Below, piece by piece: positions 1,253 to 21,396 of a stretch of DNA of 34,466 nucleotides. Numbering within the stretch: the first letter of the stretch is position 1; the number at the start of each line of letters is the position of its first letter. A model generated the notes under the pieces. It was not told the origin of the DNA. It did not search any database and saw nothing but the letters and a program-made list of their open reading frames with translations. Position numbers and translations under genes: made by a program. This DNA comes from Myroides odoratus DSM 2801 (GTDB lineage Bacteria; Bacteroidota; Bacteroidia; Flavobacteriales; Flavobacteriaceae): positions 4,175,958 to 4,210,423 of the forward strand of contig NZ_CM001437.1 of NCBI RefSeq assembly GCF_000243275.1, written 5' to 3'.

Positions 1253-1260
1253 GAAGTATT

Positions 1261-2532: not shown

Positions 2533-2536
2533 GGTT

Positions 2537-3469
2537 ATGGAATTGAAAAAGAGAATTATAATTTGGGGATTAAGCCTACTAGGTGTAGGCTTTCTTCCTC
2601 CCCTTTACGCACAGCAAGACCCTCAGTATACACAATATATGTACAATACCACGATGATTAATCCAGCGTATGCAGGAAGTAGAGGAACACTGAATGTATT
2701 TGGGATGTATCGCACGCAATGGGTGGGTTTAGAAGGTGCTCCTAAAACAGCGAATATATCAATATCTACGCCTCTAGGAGATAGCGGATTGGGATTAGGG
2801 GTTAACTTTATGAATGACCGATTAGGCGCTATGGAAGAAAATAATATCGCTGTGGATTTGGCGTATGCAATCAATATAAGCTACAACTATAAATTGGCCT
2901 TTGGATTAAAAGGAACGGCTAATTTACTCAACGTAGATTATACCAAATTAACAATTTATCACCCTACAGATCCTGTTGCTCAAGAAAATATCAGCAACAA
3001 GTTTAATCCCAATATAGGAGCTGGACTGTACCTTTATTCTGATCGAGCTTATTTGGGAATTTCAGTTCCCAACTTCTTAACACAAGATCGCTACGATGAT
3101 AATGAAGTCAATACCATGCGTCAAAAGGCTCATTTTTATTTGATGGGAGGTTATGTATTTGAATTAGGAAGGGACGTGCAATTCAAACCCGCTGTATTGG
3201 CCAAAGCAATTAGTGGTTCGCCTTTACAAGTAGATGCAACAGCGAACTTCTTATTCTATGAAAAATTCACACTCGGAGCAGCATATCGTTGGGATGCTTC
3301 CGTAAGTGCCTTAGCTGGATTTCAAGTAACCAAAGACTTATTTGTAGGCTACGCTTATGATTTTGAAACCACCCAACTCCGTCATTACAATTCCGGATCA
3401 CATGAAGTCTTCTTGCGATTTGAGCTATTCAAACGCGGTAGTAGAATTAATGCCCCTCGTTTCTTTTAA
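2537..3469 (+). CDS. PorP/SprF family type IX secretion outer-membrane protein
   Basis: A 310-aa outer-membrane beta-barrel protein. After a signal peptide (cleavage after YAQ) comes the PorP/SprF family signature 'QDPQYTQYMYN', then 'NPAYAGSRG' and 'RTQWVGLEGAPKT'. The remainder alternates Gly- and aromatic-rich strands ending 'EVFLRFELFKRG...'. In the T9SS, SprF-like proteins are needed for secretion or surface attachment of particular substrates with type B C-terminal domains; the CHU_C gene ending 4 nt upstream is the obvious client. Length is typical of the family (~300-340 aa). As flavobacterial genomes carry many PorP/SprF paralogues, this is probably a dedicated copy for the adhesin upstream rather than core PorP. 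Confidence 0.92.
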   Translation: MELKKRIIIWGLSLLGVGFLPPLYAQQDPQYTQYMYNTTMINPAYAGSRGTLNVFGMYRTQWVGLEGAPKTANISISTPLGDSGLGLGVNFMNDRLGAMEENNIAVDLAYAINISYNYKLAFGLKGTANLLNVDYTKLTIYHPTDPVAQENISNKFNPNIGAGLYLYSDRAYLGISVPNFLTQDRYDDNEVNTMRQKAHFYLMGGYVFELGRDVQFKPAVLAKAISGSPLQVDATANFLFYEKFTLGAAYRWDASVSALAGFQVTKDLFVGYAYDFETTQLRHYNSGSHEVFLRFELFKRGSRINAPRFF

Positions 3470-3562
3470 AGGAAAAACATCCGAAAAGAGCAGACAATTA
3501 GTACAAACCTAAAATCAGCTGGCAAAAGAGACTAGTCTTGATTTTCTTAAAAAAGAATAGAT

Positions 3563-3913
3563 ATGGATTTAAAATACAACATGATTATTGGCCTGTTTTT
3601 AATCTCTTGATTGAGTTATGCACAAAAAACAGGAATTGGCACAACAGCCCCTCTTTCAGATTTACATGGTATTTCTACCTCTAGTGATACGAAGTATAAT
3701 ATAGTAACACTTACTTCAACAGCAAGTATTTTTAGCACCTCACTAGAAACTTTAGCCAAAGCAACGGGTTGTACAGCCACATCGGGGCATACCTTATCCT
3801 ATAATGCACAAACTAAAAAGATTAGTGTTTCTTTTGCAGACTCACCTACTTATTATCCTAATGCTGGTTTATTCGTCATTAATAAAATCATGAAGGTAAA
3901 ACAAACCAATTAA
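3563..3913 (+). pseudogene. Small exported protein broken by a stop in its signal peptide
   Basis: From the ATG at 3563 the frame reads MDLKYNMIIGLFLIS, then TGA at 3608-3610, then continues in the same frame as LSYAQKTGIGTTAPLSDLHG to a TAA at 3911-3913. The two halves together form a normal signal peptide (cleavage after YAQ) followed by the 'GIGTTAPLSDLH' start that is common in exported Bacteroidota proteins. The TGA is therefore a nonsense mutation rather than a gene boundary. Reinitiation at the TTG at 3611 would give a product without a signal. The remaining ~97 residues are short for this type of protein, so the 3' part may be truncated as well. Function unknown. Confidence 0.7.
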
Positions 3914-4069
3914 GAGATAGATTATACAAGTTAAAAACTTTCTTGCAAAATAGTTATTTACAAGGTATAGAAGTACATACTTTTTATTATTGTTGTACTA
4001 TAAAGACAACGGAAGCGAAGCAGTTATTCTAGTAACTATATTAGTTTTTAAAAATAACTACATTAAAAT

Positions 4070-4104
4070 AAAAAAAAGTTGCTTAAAAAAGCAACTTTTT
4101 TTTA
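4070..4104. terminator. Bidirectional intrinsic terminator
   Basis: Stem GTTGCTT/AAGCAAC (4078-4084 with 4089-4095) is flanked by an A-run on the left and a T-run on the right, so it can end transcription on both strands, between the plus-strand pseudogene and the convergent mini-protein gene. Confidence 0.8.
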
Positions 4105-4105
4105 T

Positions 4106-4432
4106 TTAAGGCATCCACTCTAGAGGATGATTTGGATAATAAGATTTAATACGCACTCCTTCAGGGAATTCACCATGCTCACACCAATATTCTCTTACCA
4201 TTTTCCCCCAATCAGCAGTAAGAAATTCGCTAAAAAAGGGTGGACATAATTCTAAGGTGTAATTTCCCGGCTTTTGATAATAACAAAAAGCTGATTGTAT
4301 AGGACTTACTTCATACCCTAATAGATAACACCTAGAAATACCAATAGAAGGCTCTGAATCTAAACGGGATACATCTTGAGCGAATACTCCTATTGATAGC
4401 ATGAATGCTAATACTAAAAGTAAATTTTTCAT
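4106..4432 (-). CDS. Small secreted four-cysteine protein, family copy A
   Basis: I chose the ATG at 4432 (108 aa) because it begins a typical signal peptide, MKNLLLVLAF...GVFAQ; the 15 residues upstream would precede that signal. The mature part has about 89 residues with cysteines in a pattern shared with the proteins at 8299-8622 and 10899-11210: a Y-x-L-x-L-C segment, then M-V-R-E-Y-W-C, then F-P-x-x-V near the end. This copy is the most diverged, and it has an extra Cys in 'SAFCYYQ'. The paired cysteines in an exported protein suggest disulfides. About 90 bp upstream of the start codon is also conserved among the copies, so promoter and gene moved together. No function recognised. Confidence 0.75.
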   Translation of the reverse strand: MKNLLLVLAFMLSIGVFAQDVSRLDSEPSIGISRCYLLGYEVSPIQSAFCYYQKPGNYTLELCPPFFSEFLTADWGKMVREYWCEHGEFPEGVRIKSYYPNHPLEWMP

Positions 4433-4677
4433 AATAAATATTTTAAAATTGATTATCTTAAATATAAAGAATGTCAATCCAGATAAAAACTAAAACACTA
4501 GAAATTAACAAAATACATAGTTTAACTACATAAAATTTGATCCATTAGTTTTAGCATTTTGTTCAATAGCATAGAATAAAGTCCTCCCTAAATCATTATC
4601 ATCAATGAGGTAGGGATTTAAGTTATGCAAAATCAACTATCTTTCGATTGTTTAAGTCTTACTTACCTAAGTATAAC

Positions 4678-6078
4678 CTAAAAATAGGCCGTTAATCTTA
4701 TTCCTGTTGCTACATAATGCAGATCTGCTTTTGTAGCACTAGGTTTGGCACTAGGACCATTTAACAGCGGATTTTCTGGTGTATAGCGTACCATGGGTTT
4801 GGTACTAGAGTAATCCATATACAAGGACAATCCCAATTGATCTGTTATATTATACGTAAAAGCTGTACCTGCTGACCACCGAAACGAACTGTGTGGTTTA
4901 TAAGAGCTCACAGTCATATTATCTTGAATACTCGCGGGTAAAAAAAGATCTGTATCCCTTTGTTTCGCTTCAATTTTTCCAATGGCTCCAAAAGAATAGC
5001 CTGCTGTAGCTTTAAGCATTAGATTAAAATCTGAGGAAAAGTGGAAAGCATAATAAGGCCCTACACCCACATTCATAAATCCAAGAGCAGAACTTTGATA
5101 AGCAAGATTGTATTGTTCAAAAGCTTCTGATTGCTCTAGATTTTTAATACTACTCAATGATAGGGGATACCCTGATACTGTAAATTCTCCTCCAATCCCG
5201 ATAGATTTTGTAAAAAAATAAGCCCCTTCGAACCCAGCTTCCCAACCAATTTTAGCTTCGGGTCCATCTTTATGGAATTCAAGTAAGTTATTGCTATTAA
5301 AGCTAGCCCCTAATTTAATCGCCAAGAAAGAAGGATTTTCATTGCCCTCAAATTTGGATAAAATACTGAGATTATCTCCTTGATTTCCATATATTTTATC
5401 AATAAAAAAATAAGCTAGATTCGTGGATAAAATACCAAATCCGGCCCCAGCTAAAATATCAGGAGACCAGTGTCTATTATTCATACTGCGACCTACACCT
5501 GTCATGATTGCCATTCCATAACCCGAAATGGAATAAGCAGGATTAACTAATCCGTATTCTTTATCTAAAAACGCAGCATTGGTAAATGCTGTTGCCGCAT
5601 GGCCCGAAGGCCATGAGTTAGCCGTACTTCCATCAGGTCGCATGACTTTGGTTGAATATTTTAAACTGTTTACAAAGATGCCTGTAAATAACATACTTCC
5701 CGCATAATTGTATATACTTCGCTTCATGTTATTTCTACCTTTTACTCCAGCTGCTTTCAAACCAAAGGCCAAGGCTCCTGGAGCATATTGGAGGTAATCA
5801 TCAAACGTATTGGCAAACTCAGGAATATACTTATTTCTCGTCTCGAGAATGTGTTCTCTACTGTTCCAAGTTACAGCAGTAGCCCCAAAGAAAATCGTTG
5901 GAACAAAAGTCATTTTAATCGTTTCATTTTTCCAAATTGACTTTGGAAAAATCGAATCGGATACGGTATAAAAGGCATTGTTCTTTTTGTCTTCGAAATC
6001 AAACTTTTGCTGATAGGCACTGGCCTGAAAAACAGTAAATAAAAGAACTACATGCAACAAAAACTGTCTTATCCTCAT
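4678..6078 (-). CDS. PAP2-family phosphatase with C-terminal outer-membrane barrel-like domain
   Basis: A 466-aa protein with a signal peptide (to about residue 22). Residues ~50-220 form a PAP2 (type 2 phosphatidic acid phosphatase) domain with all three motifs intact: K140-x6-R147-P148, P157-S-G-H160 and R197-x5-H203-x3-D207. Family members remove phosphate from lipids such as phosphatidate, undecaprenyl pyrophosphate or lipid A. The remaining ~230 residues alternate aromatic and polar stretches ('GVGPYYAFHFSSDFNLMLKATAGYSFG') and end in YVATGIRLTAYF, the C-terminal aromatic of an outer-membrane beta-barrel. The architecture suggests an envelope phosphatase fused to a barrel. Substrate cannot be told from sequence. 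It is monocistronic, with no close neighbour on its strand. Confidence 0.85.
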   Translation of the reverse strand: MRIRQFLLHVVLLFTVFQASAYQQKFDFEDKKNNAFYTVSDSIFPKSIWKNETIKMTFVPTIFFGATAVTWNSREHILETRNKYIPEFANTFDDYLQYAPGALAFGLKAAGVKGRNNMKRSIYNYAGSMLFTGIFVNSLKYSTKVMRPDGSTANSWPSGHAATAFTNAAFLDKEYGLVNPAYSISGYGMAIMTGVGRSMNNRHWSPDILAGAGFGILSTNLAYFFIDKIYGNQGDNLSILSKFEGNENPSFLAIKLGASFNSNNLLEFHKDGPEAKIGWEAGFEGAYFFTKSIGIGGEFTVSGYPLSLSSIKNLEQSEAFEQYNLAYQSSALGFMNVGVGPYYAFHFSSDFNLMLKATAGYSFGAIGKIEAKQRDTDLFLPASIQDNMTVSSYKPHSSFRWSAGTAFTYNITDQLGLSLYMDYSSTKPMVRYTPENPLLNGPSAKPSATKADLHYVATGIRLTAYF

Positions 6079-6242
6079 ACTAAATTTATTTTATTAAACG
6101 TATTCCTATGCTGAATACGCAATCCATACGTTGCTATAAATAGAATCTTGTGTTGTGAACTTTATAAAATAGATGTACTTAAAATTATTCGTATTATAAG
6201 TCTGTTACTTGTAAAAAGCTATCAATTATAAAGTCGATAAAA

Positions 6243-6572
6243 TTAAAATCCAAGTTGAGGAGGTTGCCAGATAGAGAAATAGATACCTTGAAATATTGGA
6301 GGACAATATTGAGGAACAGCGCGAATGATTAAATCTAAACGAGAGGGAAAGGGTGTATTAAAAATTGTCACAGTATTTAGTACCGTACAACAATCGCACA
6401 CACAGAAAGGAGAACACAAATCTAGTTCCATACTAGTTTCACTTTGTTCAGCGGTGCTGTTTTCAAGAGTAGAATGAGACACAACATAGCGATCCATACA
6501 AGCGTACTGAGATAAGGCTAATGTTAGAACTAGCATAATTAGGGTGGCTATATTTTGTAAAATCTTCACCAT
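6243..6572 (-). CDS. Cysteine-rich small exported protein, DUF6660-like
   Basis: The ATG at 6572 (109 aa) is preferred because the hydrophobic segment MVKILQNIATLIMLVLTLAL follows directly; a further in-frame ATG at 6593 adds only seven residues. After the membrane or signal segment comes 'YACMD', then a cluster 'CSPFCVCDCC' and a C-terminal 'SIWQPPQL'. I recall this cluster and tail as those of the DUF6660 family of Bacteroidota, often next to heavy-metal efflux genes; the family name is from memory. The cysteine cluster suggests metal binding at the envelope. No metal transporter lies beside it here, so it may be an orphan copy. Confidence 0.65.
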   Translation of the reverse strand: MVKILQNIATLIMLVLTLALSQYACMDRYVVSHSTLENSTAEQSETSMELDLCSPFCVCDCCTVLNTVTIFNTPFPSRLDLIIRAVPQYCPPIFQGIYFSIWQPPQLGF

Positions 6573-6910
6573 ACAAATATACCAATAAACCATAAAAAGA
6601 TAGGATTTATATATTTTATTACCACTATTTGCACTATTGTTGCATTTGTTATAAACAATGTGCGATTTATTATTACATAGGCTTCTAAGAAAGGAAAATG
6701 CAAGAACCTCAAAAAATTAGGCCAAGTTGATTGGCGAATTACCCATGTCTAGTGATAGCGGTCCCCCCCCCTTATTTCGTATCAATCTGTGCTATGGATT
6801 AATTGCTTATAGAAAATGCTAAAGGCCATTCGTCATTTATATGATTTGCAAGTGAAATAGAGCAGAAAGATATTTCTATTTTTGTTCTAACGATTTAAAA
6901 AGAATCTAGT
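6573..6910. other. Intergenic region with a C9 tract
   Basis: About 340 bp without a convincing gene. It contains a run of nine C (6763-6771), striking in such AT-rich DNA, and a TATTTTTG box at 6877-6884 that fits the Bacteroidota -7 element TAnnTTTG, 26 nt before the GNAT start codon. No matching -33 TTG was found at the usual distance. Confidence 0.5.
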
Positions 6911-7366
6911 ATGGCAATTGAATTAAGAGAGATTACAAAAGACAATTTCTTTGAAGTCGGGCTGTTGACTACTAATGCTAGTGGGATGCCTACCTTCGAT
7001 GAAGAATATATTTGTGCGAATACAGTTTCAATAGCAGAATCTAAATTTTATCCTGAACTTTTACCTCAAGGTATCTATCTCGATAATCAACCTATTGGTT
7101 TTATAATGTCAGGGCCTTATAAAAACGATAATTACAAATATTGGATTCTTAGATTTATGATTGATTATAAGTTTCAGGGAAAAGGATATGGTAAGCAATC
7201 ATTTTTAGCCTTTATTGAACAAATGAGAACTAAAAAGATGGTGAATCAGATTTTTTTAGGCTTACATGAAAGTAATAAAGCTGCAATAACATTGTATGAA
7301 TCATGTGGGTTCAGATTTACTGGAGTTGAAAAAGATAATGAATTGGTTTATGCTTTAGCTTTGTAA
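6911..7366 (+). CDS. GNAT family N-acetyltransferase
   Basis: A 151-aa single-domain GNAT protein. The acetyl-CoA pyrophosphate-binding motif A is visible as 'FQGKGYGKQS' (Q89-G-K-G-Y-G94), preceded by the beta4 strand 'YWILRFMIDYKF' and followed by 'NKAAITLYESCGFRFTG', the usual C-terminal strand of the family. The overall pattern resembles diamine/spermidine acetyltransferases (PaiA/BltD type), but substrate assignment is inference. It stands alone on the plus strand, about 130 bp before the Vat/CatB-like acetyltransferase; the two are not clearly one operon. Confidence 0.88.
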   Translation: MAIELREITKDNFFEVGLLTTNASGMPTFDEEYICANTVSIAESKFYPELLPQGIYLDNQPIGFIMSGPYKNDNYKYWILRFMIDYKFQGKGYGKQSFLAFIEQMRTKKMVNQIFLGLHESNKAAITLYESCGFRFTGVEKDNELVYALAL

Positions 7367-7494
7367 GTGCTCTTTTACACTTGACCAAAGGCACCAACAC
7401 GATGCAAGACAACCGTTGATACCACGGTGAAAGCATACACCTGTACACAAACAGTTACTCGTTAATAGAAGACATTTAAAAATAAAACAGAATT

Positions 7495-8109
7495 ATGAAT
7501 ATACCGGATTGTAATGATACCTTTCCTTTAGCACCTTATGATCGATTGTGTTTTTTAAAAAACATCATAAAGAATCCAAATATCATCGTAGGAGATTATA
7601 CCTATTATGACGATTTCGAAAGCGTAGAAAACTTTGAGAAAAATGTAAAGTATCACTTTGACTTTATTGGCGATAAGTTGATCATTGGTAAATTCTGTAT
7701 GTTGGCCTCGGGTCTAACTTTTATCATGAATGGCGCTAATCATAAGATGGATGGTATTACGGCTTATCCGTTTACTATTTTTGGAAAAGATTGGAAAAAA
7801 GTAGAGCCTACCTTAGCGGAGTTGCCTTATAAAGGCGATACTGTAATCGGTAATGATGTATGGATCGGAACGAATGTAACAATTATGCCAGGCGTACATA
7901 TAGGAGATGGAGCTATTATTGCTGCTAATGCTACAGTTGTTAAGGATGTAGCTCCTTATAGCGTAGTGGGCGGTAACCCTGCAAAGGAATTAAAAAAGCG
8001 ATTTTCTGAAGAAAAAATACAAGAATTAATAGAAATGCAGTGGTGGAACTGGGATATAGAAAAGATAACAAATAAGTTAAGCTATTTAACGGAGAAGATG
8101 ACGGAGTAA
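7495..8109 (+). CDS. Xenobiotic O-acetyltransferase, Vat/CatB-like (left-handed beta-helix)
   Basis: A 204-aa hexapeptide-repeat acyltransferase of the xenobiotic acetyltransferase group. Diagnostic stretches are 'VGDYTYYDD', 'IGDKLIIGKFC', 'FIMNGANHKMDG' with the family's catalytic His at 83, 'GDTVIGNDVWIG', 'IMPGVHIGDGAIIAANA', 'YSVVGGNPAKELKKRF' and 'MQWWNWD'. The NGANH-x-MDG form is closer to streptogramin A acetyltransferases (Vat) than to chloramphenicol acetyltransferase CatB, and the length matches Vat. Members inactivate antibiotics by acetyl-CoA-dependent O-acetylation. Whether this enzyme confers resistance, and to what, cannot be read from sequence. It sits in the accessory region directly upstream of an orphan gene tail. 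Confidence 0.85.
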   Translation: MNIPDCNDTFPLAPYDRLCFLKNIIKNPNIIVGDYTYYDDFESVENFEKNVKYHFDFIGDKLIIGKFCMLASGLTFIMNGANHKMDGITAYPFTIFGKDWKKVEPTLAELPYKGDTVIGNDVWIGTNVTIMPGVHIGDGAIIAANATVVKDVAPYSVVGGNPAKELKKRFSEEKIQELIEMQWWNWDIEKITNKLSYLTEKMTE

Positions 8110-8132
8110 TTCTTAGTTGAATTATACACTAA

Positions 8133-8261
8133 TTCTTTTTGTCTAGGTATAAAATTAGAGGAAGTAATCCGAAAGAGTCGACTGTGTATAATAATGCGGA
8201 AGCCTATGTTCCAACAATGAGTGCCGTTGAAGCTTTTGGAGATGATAATACACCGTTTTAA
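8133..8261 (+). pseudogene. Orphan 3' gene tail ending in an SSB-like acidic tip (copy B)
   Basis: A frame open after a stop at 8130 reads FFLSRYKIRGSNPKES... and ends AVEAFGDDNTPF before TAA at 8259-8261. There is no start codon for it. Over the last 102 nt (8160-8261) it aligns without gaps to the tail at 10753-10854, with mostly conservative protein changes, so both once coded for the same C terminus. The end DDNTPF resembles the D-D-D-I-P-F tip of single-stranded DNA-binding proteins. Identification as an ssb remnant is a guess; that it is a truncated coding remnant is better supported. Confidence 0.5.
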
Positions 8262-8293
8262 AAAAAGCATCCTTAACGAATTAAGAATGCTTT
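8262..8293. terminator. Intrinsic terminator, likely bidirectional
   Basis: Hairpin AAAGCATcCTTAA/TTAAGaATGCTTT (about 8264-8292) with A/T runs, between the orphan tail and the convergent mini-protein gene. The same place in the other block carries a related hairpin. Confidence 0.65.
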
Positions 8294-8298
8294 ACAAT

Positions 8299-8622
8299 TT
8301 ACAATCGTACCCCTCCAGGGTATGGAGTGGTTTTATAATCTACTCTAAGTACTCTTACATAATCTGGAAATTTATTGTATTCACAAATATATTCTTGAAT
8401 CATTTCCTTTATAACATCTCGAGGTAAAGATTCTTTAAGACATATCTCTAAAACGTATTCTCCTGGAAGGGTGTATACATTACCTTGTCTTATGTGACAT
8501 TCTGGTATGAAATTGGGCATTTGTTCACATAATATCAAATCGGGATCTCTTGGGTATGTTTGATTCTGAGCAAAAGCTCCAACTGAAAGCAAAAATGCTC
8601 CCATTAACATTAATTTTTTCAT
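8299..8622 (-). CDS. Small secreted four-cysteine protein, family copy B
   Basis: A 107-aa protein with a signal peptide (MKKLMLMGAFLLSVGAFAQ, cleavage after FAQ) and a mature part of ~88 residues. It is closest to copy C (10899-11210): 'PECHI', 'GEYVLEIC', 'IKEMIQEYICEYNKFPDYV' and 'VLRVDYK' have direct counterparts there. Four cysteines are shared between B and C (positions in I-L-C, P-E-C, E-I-C and Y-I-C), consistent with two disulfides. It faces the orphan gene tail across a terminator. I recognise no known family. A secreted effector, antagonism factor or immunity protein are all possible. Confidence 0.78.
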   Translation of the reverse strand: MKKLMLMGAFLLSVGAFAQNQTYPRDPDLILCEQMPNFIPECHIRQGNVYTLPGEYVLEICLKESLPRDVIKEMIQEYICEYNKFPDYVRVLRVDYKTTPYPGGVRL

Positions 8623-8919
8623 AATAAATAATTTAAAATTGGTTATTCTAAAAGTAAAGAATGTTAATGGCTATTAAAAATAAAACACTGATAATTAGCA
8701 AAGTATATAGTTTTACTGTATTGAACGAGATCAAAAACTCCTGTATTTATATCAAACCATTTGTATTGTAGCACAACTAATGAGTTAAAAGTAAAACTTC
8801 ACGGAAGGACAGAGAAGAGCCTAACACAAAAATGATGTTCTTGAGTTATATAGGGAAAAGTTTAAAAGACATCGCATGGAACTAGTCCTAGTTTAAGCGC
8901 TATAATTAATTGAGAAATT

Positions 8920-9114
8920 TTACTGAGAAGTTACAAGGACTGTGATTAGTAAAATCAAAACAAACACAAATAAAATAGACCAAGGATTGGCAAAGTTAAT
9001 TGTGATACCCATACTAGCTATTCGTTTCGGTACGATTAGTCGTTGATCTTTGGTGTTAAAATAAAACACGCCCCATTTCCAATTAGAAGGGTCGTTAAAA
9101 TTTGAGTTATTCAT
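8920..9114 (-). CDS. Small DUF5808-like membrane protein
   Basis: A 64-aa protein. The N-terminal part 'DPSNWKWGVFYFNTKDQRLIVPKR', followed by 'ITINFANPWS', is the pattern I know from DUF5808 (NWKWG-x-FY...VPKR...NFANPWS), there usually attached to DUF1648-type or other membrane proteins. It ends with one transmembrane helix, 'ILFVFVLILLITVLV'. Function of the domain is unknown. It stands between duplicated block B and a long intergenic region. Confidence 0.72.
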   Translation of the reverse strand: MNNSNFNDPSNWKWGVFYFNTKDQRLIVPKRIASMGITINFANPWSILFVFVLILLITVLVTSQ

Positions 9115-10008
9115 CTTGTTTGTTTCTATTACTGTATTTCTTCTGACTTACCCATGCAGATTAAATATAACACTTTATTTTCAAATATAGGGTTTACTAA
9201 GTGAATGGGGAATATTTGTTTAATAGAAATAGCATTGTTATAAGATAAGCATTGTTTGTATAAATGAATAGCTATAAAATCCATTAAATCAATACGTCAG
9301 TAAAAATGCCATAAAAGCTTTAAAATAGGTTTTTATGGTTCTACGCTATACAGAAGGAAAGAATGCGGATTTAATCAATTAGTCTTAGCAGTAGCAAACT
9401 TTAAGGCTAGGAGGAGATTCACTTTTTTTTGGCTCAAAATCCATTGAGAAATTATTACTTAACGCTTATACAATGGATTCAATTTTGATTTAACAATAAA
9501 ACAACAAAATATGAATATTTACTAAACTTTTGTGTTTCAATTTTTAATATACTTTGTATTTTTGCATAAATTAAAATTAATCATCATCTGTAAATATAAT
9601 TTTAAAATCATATTTTGTTAAATTTAATTCACATTAAAAATAAATGGAGATAAGAAACCATTCAAAAACGAGGCGTAAACCGAAAAGCCAAACGAGTAGG
9701 TCATGGAATTAGAATATGTTAAAATCAAATTTAGGTTTTAGTCAAGAACCAAAACGGTTGTCTAAAGAAAATGGTGATATTCAGGAAAACTCTTCTCTTT
9801 ATCTGAAGGAAATTGAAAAAAGTAAAAAAGATATTCTTGAAAAATTTATGCAAGATTTCAGTACAGTTACTATTGATTAGCCTTTTCAAATTTTTACGGA
9901 AAAGATTTTAAAAGATACAAAAGTAGAATATCGAATTTTAGAATTGTTGCAAGGTGATTAGTACAGTAGGATACAAATAAGTTAAAGTAAGACCTCAATT
10001 AGTAAAAT
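9115..10008. other. Long intergenic region with degenerate coding traces
   Basis: Nearly 0.9 kb without an obvious intact gene. A TATTTTTG box (9557-9564) fits the Bacteroidota -7 element, with a TTTTG at 9528-9532 that is a few bases further upstream than usual. At 9649 a 22-codon highly basic frame starts (MEIRNHSKTRRK...). The only longer coding-like stretch is the 54-codon frame at 9716-9880, listed separately. Confidence 0.5.
9716..9880 (+). CDS. Possible 54-aa hydrophilic protein, perhaps a frameshifted remnant
   Basis: ATG at 9716 to TAG at 9878-9880 gives MLKSNLGFSQEPKRLSKENG..., a charged, helix-prone 54-residue product ending FMQDFSTVTID. Just beyond the stop, in another frame, a coding-like stretch 'KILKDTKVEYRILELLQGD' runs to a stop at 9960-9962. 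Together they look like one longer gene broken by a frameshift, although a true small protein cannot be excluded. No family recognised. Confidence 0.35.
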   Translation: MLKSNLGFSQEPKRLSKENGDIQENSSLYLKEIEKSKKDILEKFMQDFSTVTID

Positions 10009-10617
10009 ATGAAAATGATGAATCTTAATCTAGGTATTTCCCTTTTTACAAGTATAATCTGCTTTTTAAGTATATCATGTAAAAAAGACAATATACATTT
10101 AAGTAAAACCCATTTGGAAAAACAATATTATTCAGACAGTATTATTGAACAGAAGTATTCTATTGTATCCTATTCCTATGAAATTGAATCAGATACCGTA
10201 CCAGCTTTTTCTTTTATTGCACTTAATTTAAGTTCGGATTTTATGATTAAAACTCGCATGGCATTTTTGGAAGAGCGCTTTAGATTGGATTTTGCAAAAC
10301 AATTAGACAGTGCTCTTGTTTTTGGAATAAAAGAGAATGTAAAGGGAAAAATTAGGCATATAAATTTTGAAGTATGGCATAATGTAAATAAAAGTAATGC
10401 ACAAAAAATGATAGACTCATTGAATACGGTATTTGATAAACCTTTATATTATAAGCCTCCAGCGGAATGGCAATGGTTTATTTATAATGATAAAGTTTTC
10501 TTTATTGATGGTTATAAAGCTGGTGTAGATAGTAATCTATTACGTGAAATCAAATTAAAATATGAACGTGATACATTGTTTTTGAATTATATACTAAGCA
10601 AAGTTAAAAAAATATAG
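10009..10617 (+). CDS. Hypothetical lipoprotein
   Basis: A 202-aa protein with a lipoprotein signal peptide; the lipobox LSISC puts the lipidated Cys at residue 24, followed by KKDN. The mature part is charged and shows 'EIESDTVPAFSFIALNLSSD' and 'KPLYYKPPAEWQWFIYNDKVFFIDGY', typical of globular periplasmic or outer-membrane-facing lipoproteins. I do not recognise a domain. It stands alone upstream of duplicated block C. Start choice: MKMM at 10009; the ATGs at 10015 and 10018 would be equally good. Confidence 0.7.
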   Translation: MKMMNLNLGISLFTSIICFLSISCKKDNIHLSKTHLEKQYYSDSIIEQKYSIVSYSYEIESDTVPAFSFIALNLSSDFMIKTRMAFLEERFRLDFAKQLDSALVFGIKENVKGKIRHINFEVWHNVNKSNAQKMIDSLNTVFDKPLYYKPPAEWQWFIYNDKVFFIDGYKAGVDSNLLREIKLKYERDTLFLNYILSKVKKI

Positions 10618-10677
10618 ATTTTATTATTTGGAATATGCTGTGAAAATTGCTTGTGTAGCCTGAAGTAATTATCAAAA

Positions 10678-10854
10678 ATGAACGTTAGATTACTTCAAAT
10701 GGAGTTTTTCAGTAAAACAAAATTTGTAATTCCAACAGATAGCAACGAGAATGGAAGTAATCAGCAGGAATTGAATGTCTATGGTAATTCAGAAGCTTAT
10801 GTTCCTACAGTGAGTGTTACTGAAGTTTTTGGGAGTGATAATACACCGTTTTAA
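10678..10854 (+). pseudogene. 58-codon 3' gene remnant ending in an SSB-like acidic tip (copy C)
   Basis: ATG at 10678 to TAA at 10852-10854: MNVRLLQMEFFSKTKF, then a polar linker rich in N, S, E and Q, ending VFGSDNTPF. The shape (a beta-strand like the last strand of an OB-fold, a disordered linker and a short acidic tip with P-F at the very end) matches the C-terminal third of a single-stranded DNA-binding protein. The OB-fold itself is missing, so this is either a truncated remnant or a free SSB-tip peptide. The last 102 nt align without gaps to 8160-8261. The SSB assignment is inference from pattern only. Confidence 0.45.
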
Positions 10855-10886
10855 ATAAAAAAGCATCATTAAGGTGATGCTTTTTA
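10855..10886. terminator. Intrinsic terminator
   Basis: Hairpin AAAAAGCATCA/TGATGCTTTTT with a six-base loop and flanking A and T runs, between the orphan tail and the convergent mini-protein gene. Confidence 0.75.
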
Positions 10887-10898
10887 TATTTCTTTTTC

Positions 10899-11210
10899 TC
10901 AGAATTTCCCTAGTTTTTTATATTTTATCCTTAGTACTTCAACATAACTAGGAAAATTGTTATAAGTACACAAATAGTCTTGAATCATTTGTTTAATTGC
11001 TATAGGCGACATTGTATTTACTAAATCACCACAAATGTTGAGATCATATTGTGCATGAACACGTACCAAACCATTAATTATAATAGGACATTCAGGTTCA
11101 AATTCGATAGCTAAGTAACATAAAGTCTCTGGAGCCTTAGGAGTAGTAGTGTTTTGAGCAAATGCTCCAATTGATAGTAGAAAAGCTACTACTAAAAGTA
11201 AATTTTTCAT
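10899..11210 (-). CDS. Small secreted four-cysteine protein, family copy C
   Basis: A 103-aa protein with signal peptide MKNLLLVVAFLLSIGAFAQ and an ~84-residue mature part. It shares with copy B the four cysteines and the stretches 'PECPI', 'YDLNIC', 'IKQMIQDYLCTYNNFPSYV' and 'VLRIKYK'. The signal peptide is nearly identical to that of copy A, while the mature part is much closer to B. About 100 bp upstream of the start is conserved in all three copies, including a run like AATGTTAAT and CAAAGTAT, presumably the promoter region. Unknown function. Confidence 0.78.
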   Translation of the reverse strand: MKNLLLVVAFLLSIGAFAQNTTTPKAPETLCYLAIEFEPECPIIINGLVRVHAQYDLNICGDLVNTMSPIAIKQMIQDYLCTYNNFPSYVEVLRIKYKKLGKF

Positions 11211-11415
11211 AATAAATATTTAAAAATTGGTAGTTCTAAATATATAGAATGTTAATATCTATTAAAAATAAAATCTTGATAATTAACAAAGTATGCAGTT
11301 TTACTGTATCTATATCAGACCATTTAAGATTGTAGCACAACTAATGAATTAAAAGCAAAACTTCATGGAAGGGCAGAGAAGAGCCTAACACAAAAATGCT
11401 TTTTTTTAGATAAAA

Positions 11416-11477
11416 ATATCAAACACAACACCTGTATGTAAATTATAATAATTACATACAGGTGTTGTGTTTGATAT
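11416..11477 (-). terminator. 26-bp perfect inverted repeat closing the DprA/RecQ operon
   Basis: Arms 11416-11441 and 11452-11477 are perfect reverse complements with a 10-nt AT-only loop. On the minus strand the hairpin lies just after the dprA-like stop codon and is followed by ATTTTTATC and more T, so it can act as a terminator. The arms are much longer than in the other terminators of this window, so a second role (module boundary, recombination or protein binding site) is possible. Confidence 0.7.
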
Positions 11478-11494
11478 CGTTTAGGTAAGTAAGC

Positions 11495-12784
11495 TTAGAT
11501 TTTAAAAACCAAACTTCGTTTTCGATTTATCACATATCTAATTGGCTTTGTTTTTTTTAATAAGAACTTTTGTTCAATACCTATTTTTAACCATTCATCT
11601 ATTTGTTTAGGAGTTAAAAAAAAATGCTTCAATATTTCATCTTTTGTTATTTCGTTTGTTTCAAATGTAGCATTTAATTTATAAACAAATAATTCAAAAA
11701 AAGATGCGTCTTTAAGTGGTATAATAATTTGTTTTACTTCTCCTATGGGAGGGGGATTTTTTATAACCTTTGTATTTTGTAAAACATCATTATTTTCAAG
11801 GTTATTACTAAATAAATCTCCTTGTTTCATAGATGCTAATTCTTTATAAGAATTTGTTATTAACTCATGTATATTGATTTTTAAATTATCTGGAAGCCAT
11901 TTTGCTCCCAATTTAACAATTTCTTCATTACCTCTATTTTGATTTTTGTCAAGACAATTAACAACCCATGTAGGAACCCAATTATTTGAAATATTTTCTT
12001 TTGAACCTTCCCAAGTTCCACCTTTTGTATCTGATTTTATTACAATAGTCGTATTTGAAAGTACATAGATGAGCTTATTTCTTCCCATTGCATTTCCTAC
12101 ATTAAAACCAGCTTCAGGATTATAAGGAGATACTAAAACTAACTTATTACTAATAATATTTTCACGATAGATTTTTAAAGAAGATTTTTTTAAAAGACTA
12201 TCAGCAACAATACCTACTGAATAACCATTCAAAGACAATGCATTTAACATAGAATGTTCATCAATGCCTTTTGCGCCACCAGAAACTACTCCATATCCCT
12301 GATGAATTATTTGTTTGACAACATTTTTTGTATTATCTATATCTTCTATTGATATGTTTCTTGAACCGACAATTCCAATATATTTCTTGTTTAATAACTT
12401 GATGTTACCAATTCCAAAAAGGATAGGTGGAACTCGATCTTTTAGCTTTATTTTAAAATTTTCGGGATAGTATTTATCACTCCTATTAATTATCCAAATT
12501 CCTGCTTTAGACCATTTTTCTAACTTAATAGCAAGTGCCATTTTTCTGTCTAACAATGATATTATTCTGTCCTTTTCAATAGTCTTATCTGTCCAATTTC
12601 TTAAAATCAAATTTAAGTTAATAGTTAAAAGATCTTCTGGTTTTAAATCTTCTGATAATAGCCATCTAGCCATCCTGTTCCATTCTAATAAGGATAATGG
12701 TTTATTAAAACTATCTGTATCTTTTGAAAAATAGGCAGTTAATAGTAATATCGCTTTTGTTCTTTCTGAAATCATACTATTCAT
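11495..12784 (-). CDS. DprA/Smf-like Rossmann protein, partner of RecQ-PRTase
   Basis: A 429-aa protein. A DprA Rossmann domain spans about residues 97-310: '[11 protein letters not shown]' (135-145), '[12 protein letters not shown]' (168-179), '[11 protein letters not shown]' (234-244) and 'KGGTWEG' (254-260), all positions expected for DprA. The N-terminal ~95 residues are helical and the C-terminal ~70 resemble a winged helix ([20 protein letters not shown]). DprA loads RecA on incoming single-stranded DNA in transformation, but DprA-like proteins also serve as the antitoxin in ShosTA defence modules. It overlaps the upstream RecQ-like gene by 8 nt, implying translational coupling. The length and partner argue against this being the housekeeping dprA. 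Defence function is inference. Confidence 0.82.
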
Positions 12785-14873
12785 TTACTGATGTTGATGC
12801 TAATGCTATTGGATAAACTAAACCTGAACCAGCTTTTTTTAGTAACATTGTAGCGATTGTAAATGTCCATCTAGAATCCACAGCATCATCTAACAAAAAT
12901 ACAGGTTTATTTTGAACTATACCATCAATTTCAAATACACCATCTAAATTATTACATTGATGAAAACTATTTTCCTGTTCTTTTTGGGGGTGAGATTCTT
13001 TAACTTTTTTAATTATTGGAAAAAAAGGAATTTTTAACTTTTTAGATAAACGTTCTGCGAAATTCGAAACCAATTCAGGGTTTCTTAAGGAAGGTATACA
13101 AGTTAACCATTCTGGAAATGGATTTGGTTGCCAGCGATTTAAGATCATTTCACAAATAGCGTCAACAAGATCATCTCTAAAGTATCCCAAATGTTTATCT
13201 TCTGAAACTATTTTACCCCACCCAGAGTCTCCCCAACGAGAAAGTACTTTTCCCGTTTCTGCTTGAAAGTTTATTTTTAGATTGCCTTTTATGTTATACG
13301 TAGGTAATGCATTTGCAGCAATTTGTTTTCTAGGTAAAATATCAAATTCTGACTGTTTTAAGTAAATAGTTGCCTCAATAATGTTATTCTGAGCTACAGA
13401 AATAGGTAATTTTGTATCTGTTTGGCAGTTTGAGCATTTACCACATTTTTGAATATTAGGGTCATCTAATTCTTTTTGTAAAAATTCCATTAAACATTGT
13501 TTTGTAACTAAATAGTCTTGAACAATACTCCATTCTAATAAACGTTGATTTGTTAATCGTTCAATTTTTTCAATATCCATTTTATAATTGATAGCAGTTC
13601 TTTTCCATTGAGATCCTTCTTTTGTAATTGGTGAAAATTCTTCAACGCTAAGATATTTAATTGTTTGTTCTATTTTACCTTTTCTTAAATTTAGTATTTC
13701 CTCTATTTTTATAGTTGACAAACCATCATAATCATCCAGTACTTGCAATATACTTTCAACTATTTCTTGAGGAGGAAAAGCATGTTCTCTAAAATATTTA
13801 TGAATTTCAGCATCTTCTTGTCCTGATAAGAGTATCCCATAAGCATTATCTATAGCTCTCCCTGCACGTCCTACTTGTTGATAATAGCTTATTATGGAAT
13901 TAGGTGCTTGAAAATGAATTACAAAATTAAGATCTGGTTTATCATATCCCATTCCTAATGCTGTTGTTGAGACCAATACTTTTAATTTATTATCATATAA
14001 TGCGTCTTCTAGATATTCTCTATAAGAGTTTGAATCTTCAAAATCGTCACTTTTAACACCAGAATAATATGCTGCTGAATTTACCCCACATTTCTCTAAC
14101 CATTCTGAAACTGTTCTAACATCACGTTTTGTTAATACATAAATAATACCAGAACCTTTTAATTTGGGTATATTTTCTTTAAGCCAAGCTAATCTAGACG
14201 CTTGGTCATTTAGAATAATATTCTGTAGTTTTAAACTATCCCTGGTAAGTAATCCTTTAATTACATTGATATTTCCAATTTGTTCTTTAATATCATTAAT
14301 TACTCTATTATTAGCAGTCGCTGTAGTACCCAAGATAGGCATTCCTTTAGGCATTCCTTTTAAAATACCAACAATTCTTCTATAGTCTGGACGAAAATCG
14401 TGACCCCAATCTGAAATGCAATGAGCTTCGTCAACAACAAATAGTCCTATTTTATCAGCAATTGGATAAAGGATTTTTTCTATAAATTCTTCGCTAGCTA
14501 GTCTTTCAGGAGAAATAAGTAGGGTATCAACTTTATCGTTTAAAACTTTTTTTTTTATTTCTTCCCAATCGTCAAAATTTGCTGAGTTTATAGAAACGGC
14601 TTTAATTCCAAGTCGTTTTGCAGATTCAATTTGATTACGCATTAATGCTAATAGTGGAGATATAATAATACTTGGTCCCTTTCCTTGATCTCTTAGTATC
14701 CTTGTGCTTATAAAATAAACTAAACTTTTCCCCCAACCAGTACGTTGTATCACGAGTAGTTTTTCTTTAGCAGTAGTTAGTTTTTGTATAGACTCCCACT
14801 GGTCATCTCTAAATTGAGCATTAGGATTATTGAGGGATTTTCGAAGGAGAGTTATTGCATTATTTTTATCCAT
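12777..14873 (-). CDS. RecQ-family helicase fused to a C-terminal phosphoribosyltransferase-like domain
   Basis: A 698-aa protein. The superfamily 2 helicase core has Walker A 'QRTGWGKS' (43-50), DEAH (148-151), '[14 protein letters not shown]' (302-315) and motif VI 'QQVGRAGR' (332-339). The RecQ zinc-binding site follows: C460 and 'CGKCSNC' (C477, C480, C483). No HRDC domain is visible. Instead the end carries '[15 protein letters not shown]' (656-670) and 'YPIALAST', which fits the PRPP-binding loop and following strand of type I phosphoribosyltransferases, here about residues 540-698. The combination with a DprA-like protein in an 8-nt overlapping operon recalls ShosTA, where a PRTase toxin is paired with a DprA antitoxin; here the PRTase is joined to a 3'-5' DNA helicase. 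Codon use is AT-rich like the rest of the accessory region. Confidence 0.85.
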
Positions 14874-15570
14874 GCGATTTCTGTGTTAAAAAATATGAAT
14901 TAACTATCAAACATATGAAGTTTTTCTTTATAATCTTTACGAAAATCCGTAAACCCCGCAATATTTTGAGTCTATCAACTATTTCAACACAAAACTATCG
15001 ACTTTGGAGTAGTTTTCCAGACCTCTGCAAAAGCAAGTCGTTTTGATGGTACGAATGTAATTTCGAGTGCCTCAAAACATAACTTGCTGTTATCTTTTGA
15101 TTAGTAATTCCACCAATTTTACAACGTAAAATCTATAGTGATTTCATAGTAAGAAATCACCAACTATTAGACACTAATATGCCAAGTATTATCACAAAAC
15201 TCCATAAATCAGATTCAGCTGGTTTATAAAGTTTCTTTGTATATATAATCATATTTGCATAGGTAGATAGAGCAGTTACAGCGTACTGATGTATCTAAAA
15301 AGGTAGTAATAATGATTTTGCGTAAAGAACAACCATAAAACCGTCCCAGTAAATTAAACTTAACGTCTTTTTTATTTGTAGTTTTTTAGTTTTCCAGGCT
15401 AATAATAACAAATCATAGTATCTCTGTCTTACTTGCTTTTTTCAGGTAGATCCATAGAATGTTTTGATAGCCCGCTAATTATAGCGCTAAGTTGTGTTTT
15501 AAGAATTAGTCATATAGGAGCTAAAATACCACACACATGGTATTTTAATTATGTTAAATATGAGATAAAA
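14874..15570. other. Intergenic region upstream of the RecQ/DprA module
   Basis: About 700 bp without a supported gene. On the minus strand a TATGTTTG box (14908-14915) fits the Bacteroidota -7 element and lies 35 nt before the recQ-like start. An inverted repeat GTGATTTC/GAAATCAC with a 7-nt spacer sits at 15138-15160 and could be a regulator site. The rest is stop-rich in all frames, perhaps decayed sequence. Confidence 0.5.
14908..14915 (-). promoter_or_regulatory. -7 box of the RecQ/DprA operon
   Basis: TATGTTTG on the minus strand fits TAnnTTTG. No clear TTG at the expected -33 position, so the promoter may be weak or activated. Confidence 0.4.
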
Positions 15571-16245
15571 TTGCACTTTGTTAAATTAAAAATTAAAATT
15601 TTAAAAAAACTATTATTTACATTGTTAGGAGCTTCACTAATTATTTCTTGTTCTTCTGATGACGTTAAAATGAAAAAAGATGAATTAACTTATAATCACA
15701 ATTCTTTTGTATTAAAAGATAATATTTCAAAAGTGAATTTAGATGTTCAAACAAATTTTGTGCCTTCTCATGAAAATGCGAGGCTAATAAAATCAAATCA
15801 AAGAAGTGTTTTTTTAGAAAATAAATTTATAGACTCTTTTGGTGAAATAAGGACTGCTTTAGTTGAATATGATGGAATTGATTTGTTTACAATTTCATTT
15901 AAGGAAACAAGTTTAGTATACTACATAAAGAAAATAGCTGAAAATGAATTTTTTATTTTAAATGAAAACAATGTCAAACTTCAAAAAATAGCAATGCTTT
16001 ATGATGCTAGTAATAATTTAAACATTAAAACGATAGAGATTTACAACCATATAAATCAGAGTAAAAGTAACAATTTAATTAGCACTAGAGGTGGATGGTA
16101 TAGTTGCATGGAAGAGAGAATGTCTGATCCTTTGAATCAAGTATTGTTAGCAGGTGCCGCTGCTGCTGTCGTACCATCAGGAGGCTCTTCTTTTTTAGGC
16201 TATATGGCAGGAGTTGCAGGAATCGGAGTTTATTGTGCTTTTTAA
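15571..16245 (+). CDS. Lipoprotein with glycine/alanine-rich bacteriocin-like C terminus
   Basis: The frame is open from 15433, but the protein only becomes plausible at the lipoprotein signal 'KKLLFTLLGASLIISC' with SSDDV after the Cys. No ATG lies nearby; the best available start is TTG at 15571 (224 aa), so the true start is uncertain or was mutated. The central ~120 residues are hydrophilic and unrecognised. The end is unusual: after 'STRGG' comes WYSCMEERMSDPLNQVL and then a long stretch rich in A, G and V ('LAGAAAAVVPSGGS...LGYMAGVAGIGVYCAF') with two cysteines, as in pore-forming class II bacteriocins with a double-Gly-like junction. A 58-aa two-helix membrane protein follows after 9 nt. 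Bacteriocin-like function is inference. Confidence 0.6.
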   Translation: MHFVKLKIKILKKLLFTLLGASLIISCSSDDVKMKKDELTYNHNSFVLKDNISKVNLDVQTNFVPSHENARLIKSNQRSVFLENKFIDSFGEIRTALVEYDGIDLFTISFKETSLVYYIKKIAENEFFILNENNVKLQKIAMLYDASNNLNIKTIEIYNHINQSKSNNLISTRGGWYSCMEERMSDPLNQVLLAGAAAAVVPSGGSSFLGYMAGVAGIGVYCAF

Positions 16246-16254
16246 AGAAATAAT

Positions 16255-16431
16255 ATGAAAAAAAAAATTATATATCTATTTATAATACTAGGGGTTTTAC
16301 TACTAAATTTCGTTTTAAAGGAACTTGATCTTTTACCTAAAATCCCTAGAGAATATATTATACCTATTTCAATTTTATCTTTAATAATTGGTTCTATTAT
16401 AGGCAGAACCATAAAGAAACGATCATTATAA
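16255..16431 (+). CDS. 58-aa membrane protein with two predicted helices, possible immunity protein
   Basis: ATG at 16255 to TAA at 16429-16431. The product MKKKIIYLFIILGVLLLNFV (helix 1) is joined by a short polar loop (KELDLLPKIPRE) to 'YIIPISILSLIIGSIIG' (helix 2) and ends RTIKKRSL. It begins 9 nt after the lipoprotein with the bacteriocin-like tail and is followed by a terminator, so the two form an operon. Small two-helix proteins directly downstream of pore-forming peptides are commonly immunity proteins; that reading depends on the upstream gene being a bacteriocin-type protein. Confidence 0.65.
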   Translation: MKKKIIYLFIILGVLLLNFVLKELDLLPKIPREYIIPISILSLIIGSIIGRTIKKRSL

Positions 16432-16462
16432 AACGAAATTATTTATAAAAGCCTAACAAAAT

Positions 16463-16495
16463 AAACTCTCATCTTTTTAAGACGAGGGTTTTTCT
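16463..16495 (+). terminator. Intrinsic terminator after the two-gene operon
   Basis: Stem AAACTCTCATCTT/AAGACGAGGGTTT (two G-U pairs in RNA) followed by TTTT, 32 nt after the stop of the 58-aa gene. Confidence 0.7.
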
Positions 16496-16515
16496 ATTAT
16501 CACCCAATAATTGAT

Positions 16516-16725
16516 TTGAAGAACAAAGAAGCTGGTGAGGAATTGGAATCTGCAAAAGTAAAGGAGGAAAATACTCAATTGAGTTTTGACCAGGATGAAA
16601 AGAAAGCTGAAGAGGAGGGTGGGAGGAAAGTGGATTGAAAGCAGTTTGGTTGGTGGGGGATAATCTCCCTTATTCTGCTATTATTTATGATTTTATTATT
16701 GCTTAAAAAGCCGAAATTAATCTAG
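16516..16725 (+). pseudogene. Small single-helix membrane protein broken by an in-frame TGA
   Basis: The frame reads LKNKEAGEELESAKVKEE..., a charged coiled-coil-like stretch to GGRKVD, then TGA (16636-16638), then continues in frame as KQFGWWGIISLI, a strong transmembrane helix and KKPKLI before TAG (16723-16725). No ATG opens it; only TTG at 16516. A cytoplasmic charged segment with a C-terminal membrane anchor split by a stop is best read as a decayed gene. Identity unknown. Confidence 0.5.
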
Positions 16726-16766
16726 TGTGTCAAAGTTAAAAAACAAAAACTATACAAAAACTACTC

Positions 16767-16808
16767 ATAAAAAAAACAACCACCTGATAATCAGATGGTT
16801 GTTTTTTA
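16767..16808 (-). terminator. Terminator of the tmRNA gene (works both ways)
   Basis: Hairpin AACAACCAcCTGAT/ATCAGaTGGTTGTT with A and T runs on the two sides, immediately beyond the 3' end of the tmRNA on the minus strand. Confidence 0.85.
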
Positions 16809-16814
16809 TTTCTG

Positions 16815-17208
16815 TGGAGTCGCCGAGAATCGAACTCGGGTCCAAACAAGCAATCAGAGAGCTTTCTACACGCTTAGTTTCAACTTGAATTTTCGATCAG
16901 CAGCTTGGTTTGAAACAACCACTACTGACTTAGCCTCTAAGATTTCGGAAGATGTCCGAGACACTAACCTTCCTAGGTTTATTTTACGGTTCCCCTCAAC
17001 AAAGCGCCACAAACCAAGGCTCTTAAGGAGAATCTAGCTCTTCCACCTGGTGGAAACTAAGGCAATCTTACTATAATTCAGATTATGCAGCTAAAGCGTA
17101 ATTATTTTCGCCGTTTAAAAAGTTCGTTGTCTGATATTTACGAGCAAAACAACAACGCTCGACGTGCTTACTGACTAATTCCACTCGCTGTCAAAACCGA
17201 TCGACCCC
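16815..17208 (-). ncRNA. ssrA: Transfer-messenger RNA (tmRNA)
   Basis: The 5' end GGGGTCG (17208 downward) and the 3' CGACTCC next to position 16816 form a perfect 7-bp tRNA-like acceptor stem (one G-U), with discriminator A at 16815; CCA is not encoded. The T-arm is intact (ACCCGAGTTCGATTCTCGG region), and 'TTTTGACAG' follows the 5' stem as in other tmRNAs. The tag reading frame ends ...GENNYALAA before TAA (stop at 17083-17085, tag end 17086-17112), the usual Bacteroidota form recognised by ClpXP-type proteases. It rescues stalled ribosomes with SmpB. Long frames over this region are not genes. The accessory region begins right beyond its 3' end, a frequent integration point for mobile elements. 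Confidence 0.96.
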
Positions 17209-20556: not shown

Positions 20557-21396
20557 CTAAACAACGGATTTAGTCATGCGGTCATTCTGTAGTAAATCAC
20601 GGCGTAATTCCGTGTTTTTAAACCCTATAGATGTCAATAACTCAACCATTTCTTGACCTAAATATTGATTGATTTCATAAAATAATTGCCCACCAGTTTG
20701 TAAATTATCAAAGGCTAATGTTGCAATTTTACGGTAAAAGATAAGCGGATCTTGATCTGTTACAAATAGCGCTGTATGCGGTTCATAATCCATGACATTT
20801 TTCTTTATTTCGACCTTTTCCAATTGACGAATGTAGGGCGGATTTGAAACAATCACATCGAATGTGGTAGCCAATTGGGGTAAAGCTAAAATGTCTTGTT
20901 GTATAAAATTAACTTGTACACCTAAGTTTGTTGCATTTTGTTGTGCTACTTGCAAAGCTTCTGCAGCGATATCCAAAAGGGTCACTTGACTTTGTGGCAA
21001 TTCTTTAGCCAAGGTCAATCCAATGCAACCACTGCCAGTTCCAATATCCAAGATGCGTATGGGTTGATCAGCAGGAACACTCGCTAAAATCCATTCTACT
21101 AATTCTTCTGTTTCCGGACGAGGAATTAACGTATGTTCATTCACCTGAAAGGTATAACCGTAAAAATAAGCCTTGCCAAAAATATGCTGAATGGGCTTTT
21201 GATTGCGAAGTTCTTCCAATGTATGTGCCCATTTTTCAGGATTCGCAGTTACTAAATCCGGATGCATCACCAAATCAATGCGCGTTTTCTCTTCGAGTTC
21301 TTCCAAACAGAAGAGAAACAATTGCTGAGCTTCTAACTCGTCGTAAATCGGAGTGAGCTCAGTGATAAACTGGTCTTGAAGTAATTTTATCAACAT
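20557..21396 (-). CDS. prmC: Release factor glutamine N5-methyltransferase PrmC
   Basis: A 279-aa enzyme of usual length. SAM-binding motif I is 'ILDIGTGSGCIGL' (115-127), and the catalytic 'VSNPPYI' (183-189) places NPPY at 185-188, which binds the target glutamine of the GGQ loop in release factors RF1 and RF2. The N-terminal helical domain includes 'IQHIFGKAYFYGYTFQV' and 'LIPRPETEELVEWIL', both typical of PrmC/HemK. The methylation promotes peptide release in translation. It is divergent from ribD, with 69 nt between start codons, a common pairing in flavobacteria. Confidence 0.96.
   Translation of the reverse strand: MLIKLLQDQFITELTPIYDELEAQQLFLFCLEELEEKTRIDLVMHPDLVTANPEKWAHTLEELRNQKPIQHIFGKAYFYGYTFQVNEHTLIPRPETEELVEWILASVPADQPIRILDIGTGSGCIGLTLAKELPQSQVTLLDIAAEALQVAQQNATNLGVQVNFIQQDILALPQLATTFDVIVSNPPYIRQLEKVEIKKNVMDYEPHTALFVTDQDPLIFYRKIATLAFDNLQTGGQLFYEINQYLGQEMVELLTSIGFKNTELRRDLLQNDRMTKSVV

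Follow-up and report, generated by a model that had tools for sequence, protein, structure and literature searches.

A PsyrTA gene pair in Myroides odoratus

The DNA analysed here (hereafter the window) is a 34,466-nt stretch of the Myroides odoratus DSM 2801 genome (GCF_000243275.1, contig NZ_CM001437.1, positions 4,175,958-4,210,423, forward strand), and on its minus strand lie two adjacent genes, psyrT (rqlH, 12777..14873) and psyrA (rqlI, 11495..12784). The first encodes a 698-aa RecQ-type helicase fused to a ComF-like phosphoribosyltransferase (PRTase), the toxin component as judged by a PADLOC PsyrT match and a Pfam/NCBIfam RecQ core, and the second a 429-aa DprA-like protein, the antitoxin component as judged by PADLOC PsyrA, PF02481 and Foldseek. 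Both frames are full length and open. They overlap by 8 nt when each begins at its first ATG, as a first-pass annotation of the DNA had described; a second in-frame psyrA ATG (12775) sits 1 nt past the psyrT stop and is no less plausible as a start, so the two genes may in fact be separated by a 1-nt gap instead of overlapping. The AT-richness pointed out in that annotation holds, with GC contents of 0.310 for psyrT and 0.271 for psyrA set against a window mean of 0.344 and a range of 0.372-0.423 for six other measured window genes.

The gene pair is an intact copy of the already described PsyrTA/RqlHI system and is ordinary in itself. Sberro 2013 and Millman 2022 are said to be the sources for this system. 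When PADLOC was run, as the first-pass annotation had suggested, PsyrT matched model PDLC03928 with 1001.8 bits (protein residues 3-697 against model positions 5-687 of 689) and PsyrA matched PDLC03927 nearly end-to-end with 444.3 bits; full-length scores of this size mean that the matches are not due to chance, and the reading of the pair as a new system was dropped because of them. The helicase–PRTase is thus of PsyrT type along its full length, its DprA-like partner is of PsyrA type and lies directly 3' on the same strand, and its PRTase fold carries an acidic pair in the loop that binds phosphoribosyl pyrophosphate (PRPP). Gene order, protein sizes, the combination of helicase, PRTase and DprA-like partner, and the numbering of K49, D148 and D663, which is the same as in E. 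coli RqlH, are all shared with PsyrTA/RqlHI; the Myroides copy differs in that its PsyrT is 55.5% identical to an E. coli plasmid PsyrT, and in standing isolated beside the transfer-messenger RNA (tmRNA) gene. In the literature, represented here and below by excerpts of each paper, E. coli RqlH and RqlI are given as 698 and 400 aa (Russell and Mulvey 2015, PMC4670107), rqlHI and syrTA are tabulated with DprA-like antitoxins (PMC9122126), the coupling of a PRTase–helicase fusion to DprA and the parallel with ComF had already been remarked (PMC5512222), and PsyrTA is listed as a defence system credited to Millman 2022 (PMC10121019).

The helicase half of PsyrT is a superfamily 2 (SF2) RecQ core (13824..14816; this and all other protein domains are encoded on the minus strand) that spans residues ~20-350 and contains K49, a DEAH motif at 148-151 and QVGRAGR at 333-339. 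It was recognised by Pfam (DEAD, E 2.3e-24; Helicase_C, E 1.1e-14) and by phmmer against solved RecQ helicases (best E 1e-48). A zinc site follows at residues 460-483 (13425..13496), identified by the conservation of C460, C477, C480 and C483; the RecQ_Zn_bind match at residues 448-484 was weak, with an E of 0.014 that falls under the cut-off. Conservation was scored for psyrT on 74 of 80 homologous rows plus the window copy (six rows were dropped for length) and for psyrA on the 74 rows inside length limits. Across the 75 PsyrT sequences, K49, D148/E149/H151, R336/R339 and the four cysteines were each at least 98% identical, in agreement with the RecQ core and zinc site proposed at first pass. 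As to family, PsyrT exceeded the cut-off of the broad RecQ subfamily TIGR00614 (234.7 bits against 219.8) and fell far below that of the canonical recQ equivalog TIGR01389 (277.1 against 640.2). It thus shares the SF2 core and zinc cysteines with RecQ DNA helicases and differs in having a ComF-like unit where further RecQ domains would be.

This ComF-like PRTase unit occupies residues ~503-698 (12780..13367). On the Myroides protein alone, PF00156 remained below the Pfam cut-off (E 0.0045, 16.7 bits versus 26.3), and it was found at E <=0.01 in 70 of the 74 aligned PsyrT C-termini, the Myroides copy included. The predicted structure of the C-terminus adopts a PRTase fold whose nearest matches are ComF and, second, ShosT, so the PRTase-like end in place of HRDC is borne out, and the lack of a PRTase fold, named beforehand as refuting, is not observed. 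The structure alignments comprised 74 rows (the window copy and 73 of 74, without L028) and 63 rows (the window copy and 62 of 65, without L024, L026 and L049). Because the alignment with ShosT and ComF begins at about residue 503, twenty residues past the last zinc cysteine, the model would leave no space for a separate RecQ winged-helix domain either, in addition to HRDC. Within the unit, the PRPP-binding loop DDAVDSRWT (residues 662-670, 12864..12890) retains D662, D663, S667 and T670, which are present in 75 of 75 sequences, along with W669 (74/75) and D666 (73/75); residue 668 is G in 49/75 and R in 10/75, with the Myroides R668 among these ten. Separately, two PADLOC models named DpdF (PDLC02866 and PDLC02869) matched PsyrT residues 462-697, and some DpdF models may have been built on PsyrT-like sequences or share PsyrT's ending.

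PsyrA contains a DprA Rossmann-type domain (residues 91-297, 11894..12514; PF02481, E 3.9e-39) of high model confidence and, after a linker of low confidence (317-319 and 328-348), a C-terminal helix/strand domain (residues 351-428, 11501..11734) delimited by model secondary structure and predicted local distance difference test (pLDDT) values, which from the order of its elements appears winged-helix-like. It is nearest to ShosA and DprA, the top Foldseek match of the model being ShosA 8zva (E 8.6e-16). Its score against the canonical dprA equivalog TIGR00732 was 95.2 bits, short of the 191.15 cut-off, and the genome encodes a further DprA-like protein of 375 aa with 26% identity.

The first-pass annotation had proposed a candidate defence module related to ShosTA. 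The kinship in kind stands, as both systems pair a PRTase toxin with a DprA-type partner and both proteins find ShosT or ShosA as structural matches; the novelty does not, the system being already known, and the interpretation was therefore only partly supported. PsyrTA differs from ShosTA by its RecQ helicase, for which the matched ShosT chains (412 and 424 residues) would be too short. ShosTA membership itself, a stand-alone PRTase toxin with ShosA, was rejected on the helicase fusion and on the partner's score, the best ShosA model reaching 98.1 bits on the PsyrA protein, a distant second to 444.3 for PsyrA. The Myroides pair exemplifies a described system in a genus of which the other members examined are without psyrT; the facts of use beyond this are that the toxic domain is structurally nearest to ComF, that the PsyrA pairing is constant among the 80 closest relatives compared, and that some relatives sit in restriction or BREX operons on more than one branch.

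Distribution and genomic setting of relatives

Relatives were compared in 80 loci, the best of >572 that encode one, with distant RqlH outside these counts. In 80/80, psyrT is followed on its own strand by a PsyrA-like open reading frame (ORF), at a spacing of -113 to +6 nt in 76; the exceptions are L078 (135 nt) and L085 (130 nt), and two loci with an interrupted psyrT frame, L050 and L063. Among 24 loci from a phylum-wide search, 23 gave a PsyrA-profile match (fragments only in L147 and L150) and one, the short locus L159, gave none. The genus and phylum searches used psyrT as the only query. They detected it in 0/36 other same-genus genomes (E 1e-60; five of the 36 are <90% complete) and in 23/395 phylum genomes, Myroides copy included (E 1e-100), so that the pair does not belong to the fixed core of close relatives. 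Two genomes of the phylum, G338 (L141, L161) and G452 (L142, L162), each contain two divergent psyrT copies, 54-55% and 42-43% identical to the Myroides copy and each accompanied by a PsyrA-like ORF. In phage records, the 13 matches were partial, none spanning 80% of the query, and IMG/VR yielded two relatives.

The right-hand boundary of the accessory stretch is a conserved tmRNA gene (16814..17208, minus strand, ARAGORN), which is followed by an AlaDH-like gene in 26 of 30 fetched same-genus relatives. The window's left-side genes are wanting in 25 of the 26 same-genus relatives with at least 12 kb left of tmRNA. Together with the genus and phylum distribution, this makes psyrTA accessory, exact borders aside. 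The remaining relative, G017 (L175), has a PorP/SprF-like gene with 39% identity to window 2537-3469 only ~0.95 kb to the left of tmRNA; the corresponding distance in the window (2537-16813) is 13 kb and takes in psyrTA. G017 thus speaks partly against a wholly foreign left side, and the left border may fall between PorP and tmRNA.

Part of the family is embedded in restriction-modification (R-M) and bacteriophage exclusion (BREX) loci. A conjugative plasmid of E. coli has psyrTA in the hsdS–hsdR gap, and an Acinetobacter plasmid has it within BREX, flanked by pglX and a DUF262 gene. The order hsdM-hsdS-psyrT-psyrA-hsdR on one strand recurred in 8/80 loci (L023, with an extra gene before hsdR, L031, L032, L038, L045, L054, L061 and L081), with plasmid L173 having the same hsdS–hsdR placement; hsdR directly follows psyrA in L044, hsd genes directly follow the pair in L053 and L086, and in L062 they lie farther off on the opposite strand. 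BREX genes accompany psyrTA in 4/80 loci (L015, L036, L049 and L056) and on plasmid L174. Two pairs are near-identical (L049 and L056; L054 and L173). All R-M and BREX labels came from queries of the two plasmids and many loci are incomplete, so these counts are lower bounds.

In mechanically called ORFs, with one immediate gene per side available upstream in 77 and downstream in 71 of the 80 loci, the gene 5' of psyrT was HsdS in 8/77 and the gene 3' of psyrA was HsdR in 9/71. The control, 81 outer genes of the same loci and hence not independent, matched 32 PADLOC families; each of the 25 listed matched one gene, and type I specificity and restriction subunits were absent from these 25. Defence families do occur in the control set (PglZ, KwaB, DrmD and SngB). 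The special link of psyrTA is therefore with R-M and BREX neighbours, as HsdS and HsdR stand beside it and are absent from the listed control matches. Label changes, each of which may be a gain or a loss, were counted on a quick tree of 78 rows with L174 on a long branch. The nested-R-M label (10 rows, L173 and L044 among them) required 8 changes, at least 6 of them forced by the starred branches, and was only mildly clustered (shuffled mean 9.6; 37 of 500 shuffles were as low as 8); the BREX label (5 rows) required 4 changes, all forced. Other systems are known to be embedded in the hsdS–hsdR gap, such as DarTG2 (PMC12255303), and a type I cluster also houses TgvAB (PMC12409362). A limited literature search found no report of PsyrTA embedded in R-M or BREX, which hints that this placement is unreported in print, though Payne et al. 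2024 on embedded systems, cited in PMC12255303, may contain it.

Proposed mode of action and competing explanations

We consider it very probable that the pair is an intact toxin–antitoxin-type PsyrTA, presumably an anti-phage module, with the PRTase as the toxic part and PsyrA holding it inactive. Identity, intact residues, predicted fold, pairing and accessory distribution are shown here; for substrate, trigger and activity in Myroides, we infer the following course. PsyrT would act as a RecQ-type DNA helicase or translocase bearing a ComF-like toxic PRTase, to which PsyrA would bind to keep it inactive until phage infection or DNA damage frees PsyrT. The freed PRTase would then use PRPP on nucleotides or bases, possibly at DNA where the helicase moves, and disturbed purine pools and DNA synthesis would lead to SOS induction, filamentation and viability loss, the helicase serving as a DNA-coupled regulator and the end effect being presumably ShosT-like. 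In E. coli, RqlH without RqlI induces SOS and filamentation, and PRTase deletion, DIVD663EVME and D663A each abolish its effects on growth, SOS and filamentation; toxicity of the E. coli F11 protein is neutralised by PsyrA (RqlI), which binds via the PRTase part, and RqlH 1-509 loses co-immunoprecipitation with RqlI (PMC4670107). ShosT is described as a PRTase and pyrophosphatase that disturbs purine metabolism (PMC12593503, citing Pu et al. 2025).

Several observations weigh against this interpretation. With R668 in place of the common G, the PRTase competence of the Myroides copy is not certain; in E. coli, the PRTase part of RqlH showed no toxicity by itself, and the effects of helicase mutations were complex (PMC4670107). 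No protection could be detected from a native E. coli PsyrTA (NILS69; PMC12409345), which leaves the excerpted literature on phage protection mixed (PMC10121019 versus PMC12409345). PsyrTA is also underrepresented in the defence islands of metagenome-assembled genomes, inside which it co-localises with other systems (PMC10924106). Finally, no recognised defence gene flanks Myroides psyrTA among the genes scanned with PADLOC, namely ten window proteins, with the genes at 152-3469 and from 21442 on lying outside the scan; the only other matches were a weak one of a GNAT protein and those of a putative methyltransferase at 20557-21396 (mad2, 5.1e-24), which is probably a core gene. The defence-neighbourhood link considered at first pass is not seen among the genes scanned around the Myroides copy and is found for the part of the family in restriction and BREX loci.

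The repeated same-strand placement between hsdS and hsdR and in BREX, on several branches, raises the possible but unlikely role of a restriction guard, in which the helicase–PRTase would read DNA intermediates after failed or inhibited restriction and then disable nucleotide supply, solitary copies such as the Myroides one guarding the cell's DNA-processing state instead. The embedded relatives connect a DprA-controlled PRTase toxin with restriction in a way that can be tested, and this is the part worth following. We give somewhat less credence still to a mainly DNA-repair or genome-maintenance device, whose toxicity would be a by-product of PsyrA loss and for which phage defence would be secondary or absent: a beneficial function on DNA was proposed by Russell and Mulvey, who also report rqlH without rqlI in many Gram-positives (PMC4670107), and the unprotective native pair fits as well, but the accessory distribution of psyrT and its recurrent location in restriction and BREX loci argue otherwise. 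That the Myroides copy is a decaying or silent remnant, as R668, 22 residues that deviate at positions conserved to at least 90% and the high AT might suggest, is very improbable given two open, full-length frames, retained catalytic and zinc residues, and an R at 668 in nine further sequences of the 75. Least credible is an aid to natural transformation by a fused ComFA/ComFC-like unit with a DprA, since the E. coli authors were unable to detect transformation (PMC4670107), and a competence core locus was dropped on the 0/36 same-genus count, unexpected for such a core, and the separate DprA-like gene. From competence ComF (ComFC) and DprA the system differs in being helicase-fused, accessory and toxic in an E. 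coli homologue.

Surroundings of the Myroides locus

A perfect 26-bp inverted repeat with a 10-nt loop (11416..11477, minus strand) begins 17 nt past the psyrA stop and folds as RNA at -40.6 kcal/mol (z -12.35). A genome-wide search tolerating up to 3 mismatches found no second copy. The repeat is probably a transcript end, with only a short T run after it; it is missing from the terminators called by the promoter/terminator scan, which does not allow loops of this length. Sigma-70-like promoter matches were not above shuffles (21 versus a shuffled mean of 24.4), and a Bacteroidota-type pattern yielded two -7-like sites 5' of psyrT and not one complete promoter. As regards a possible insertion at the tmRNA 3' end, direct repeats of that end were not reported, a guessed tmRNA-end pattern was also without match, and none of the 14 window proteins scanned with Pfam was recognised as an integrase.

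Adjoining psyrA is a ~690-bp cassette that carries a gene for a small secreted protein (107 and 103 aa), present at 8160-8848 and 10753-11412 and in part at 4374-4531; its copies are 72-89% identical and flank a 202-aa lipoprotein-like gene. On the other side, window 15433-16431 holds, as judged by eye, a gene for a lipoprotein-like protein of 270 aa whose hydrophobic end is rich in glycine, and after it a short frame for a membrane protein; the two are possibly a bacteriocin/immunity-like pair.
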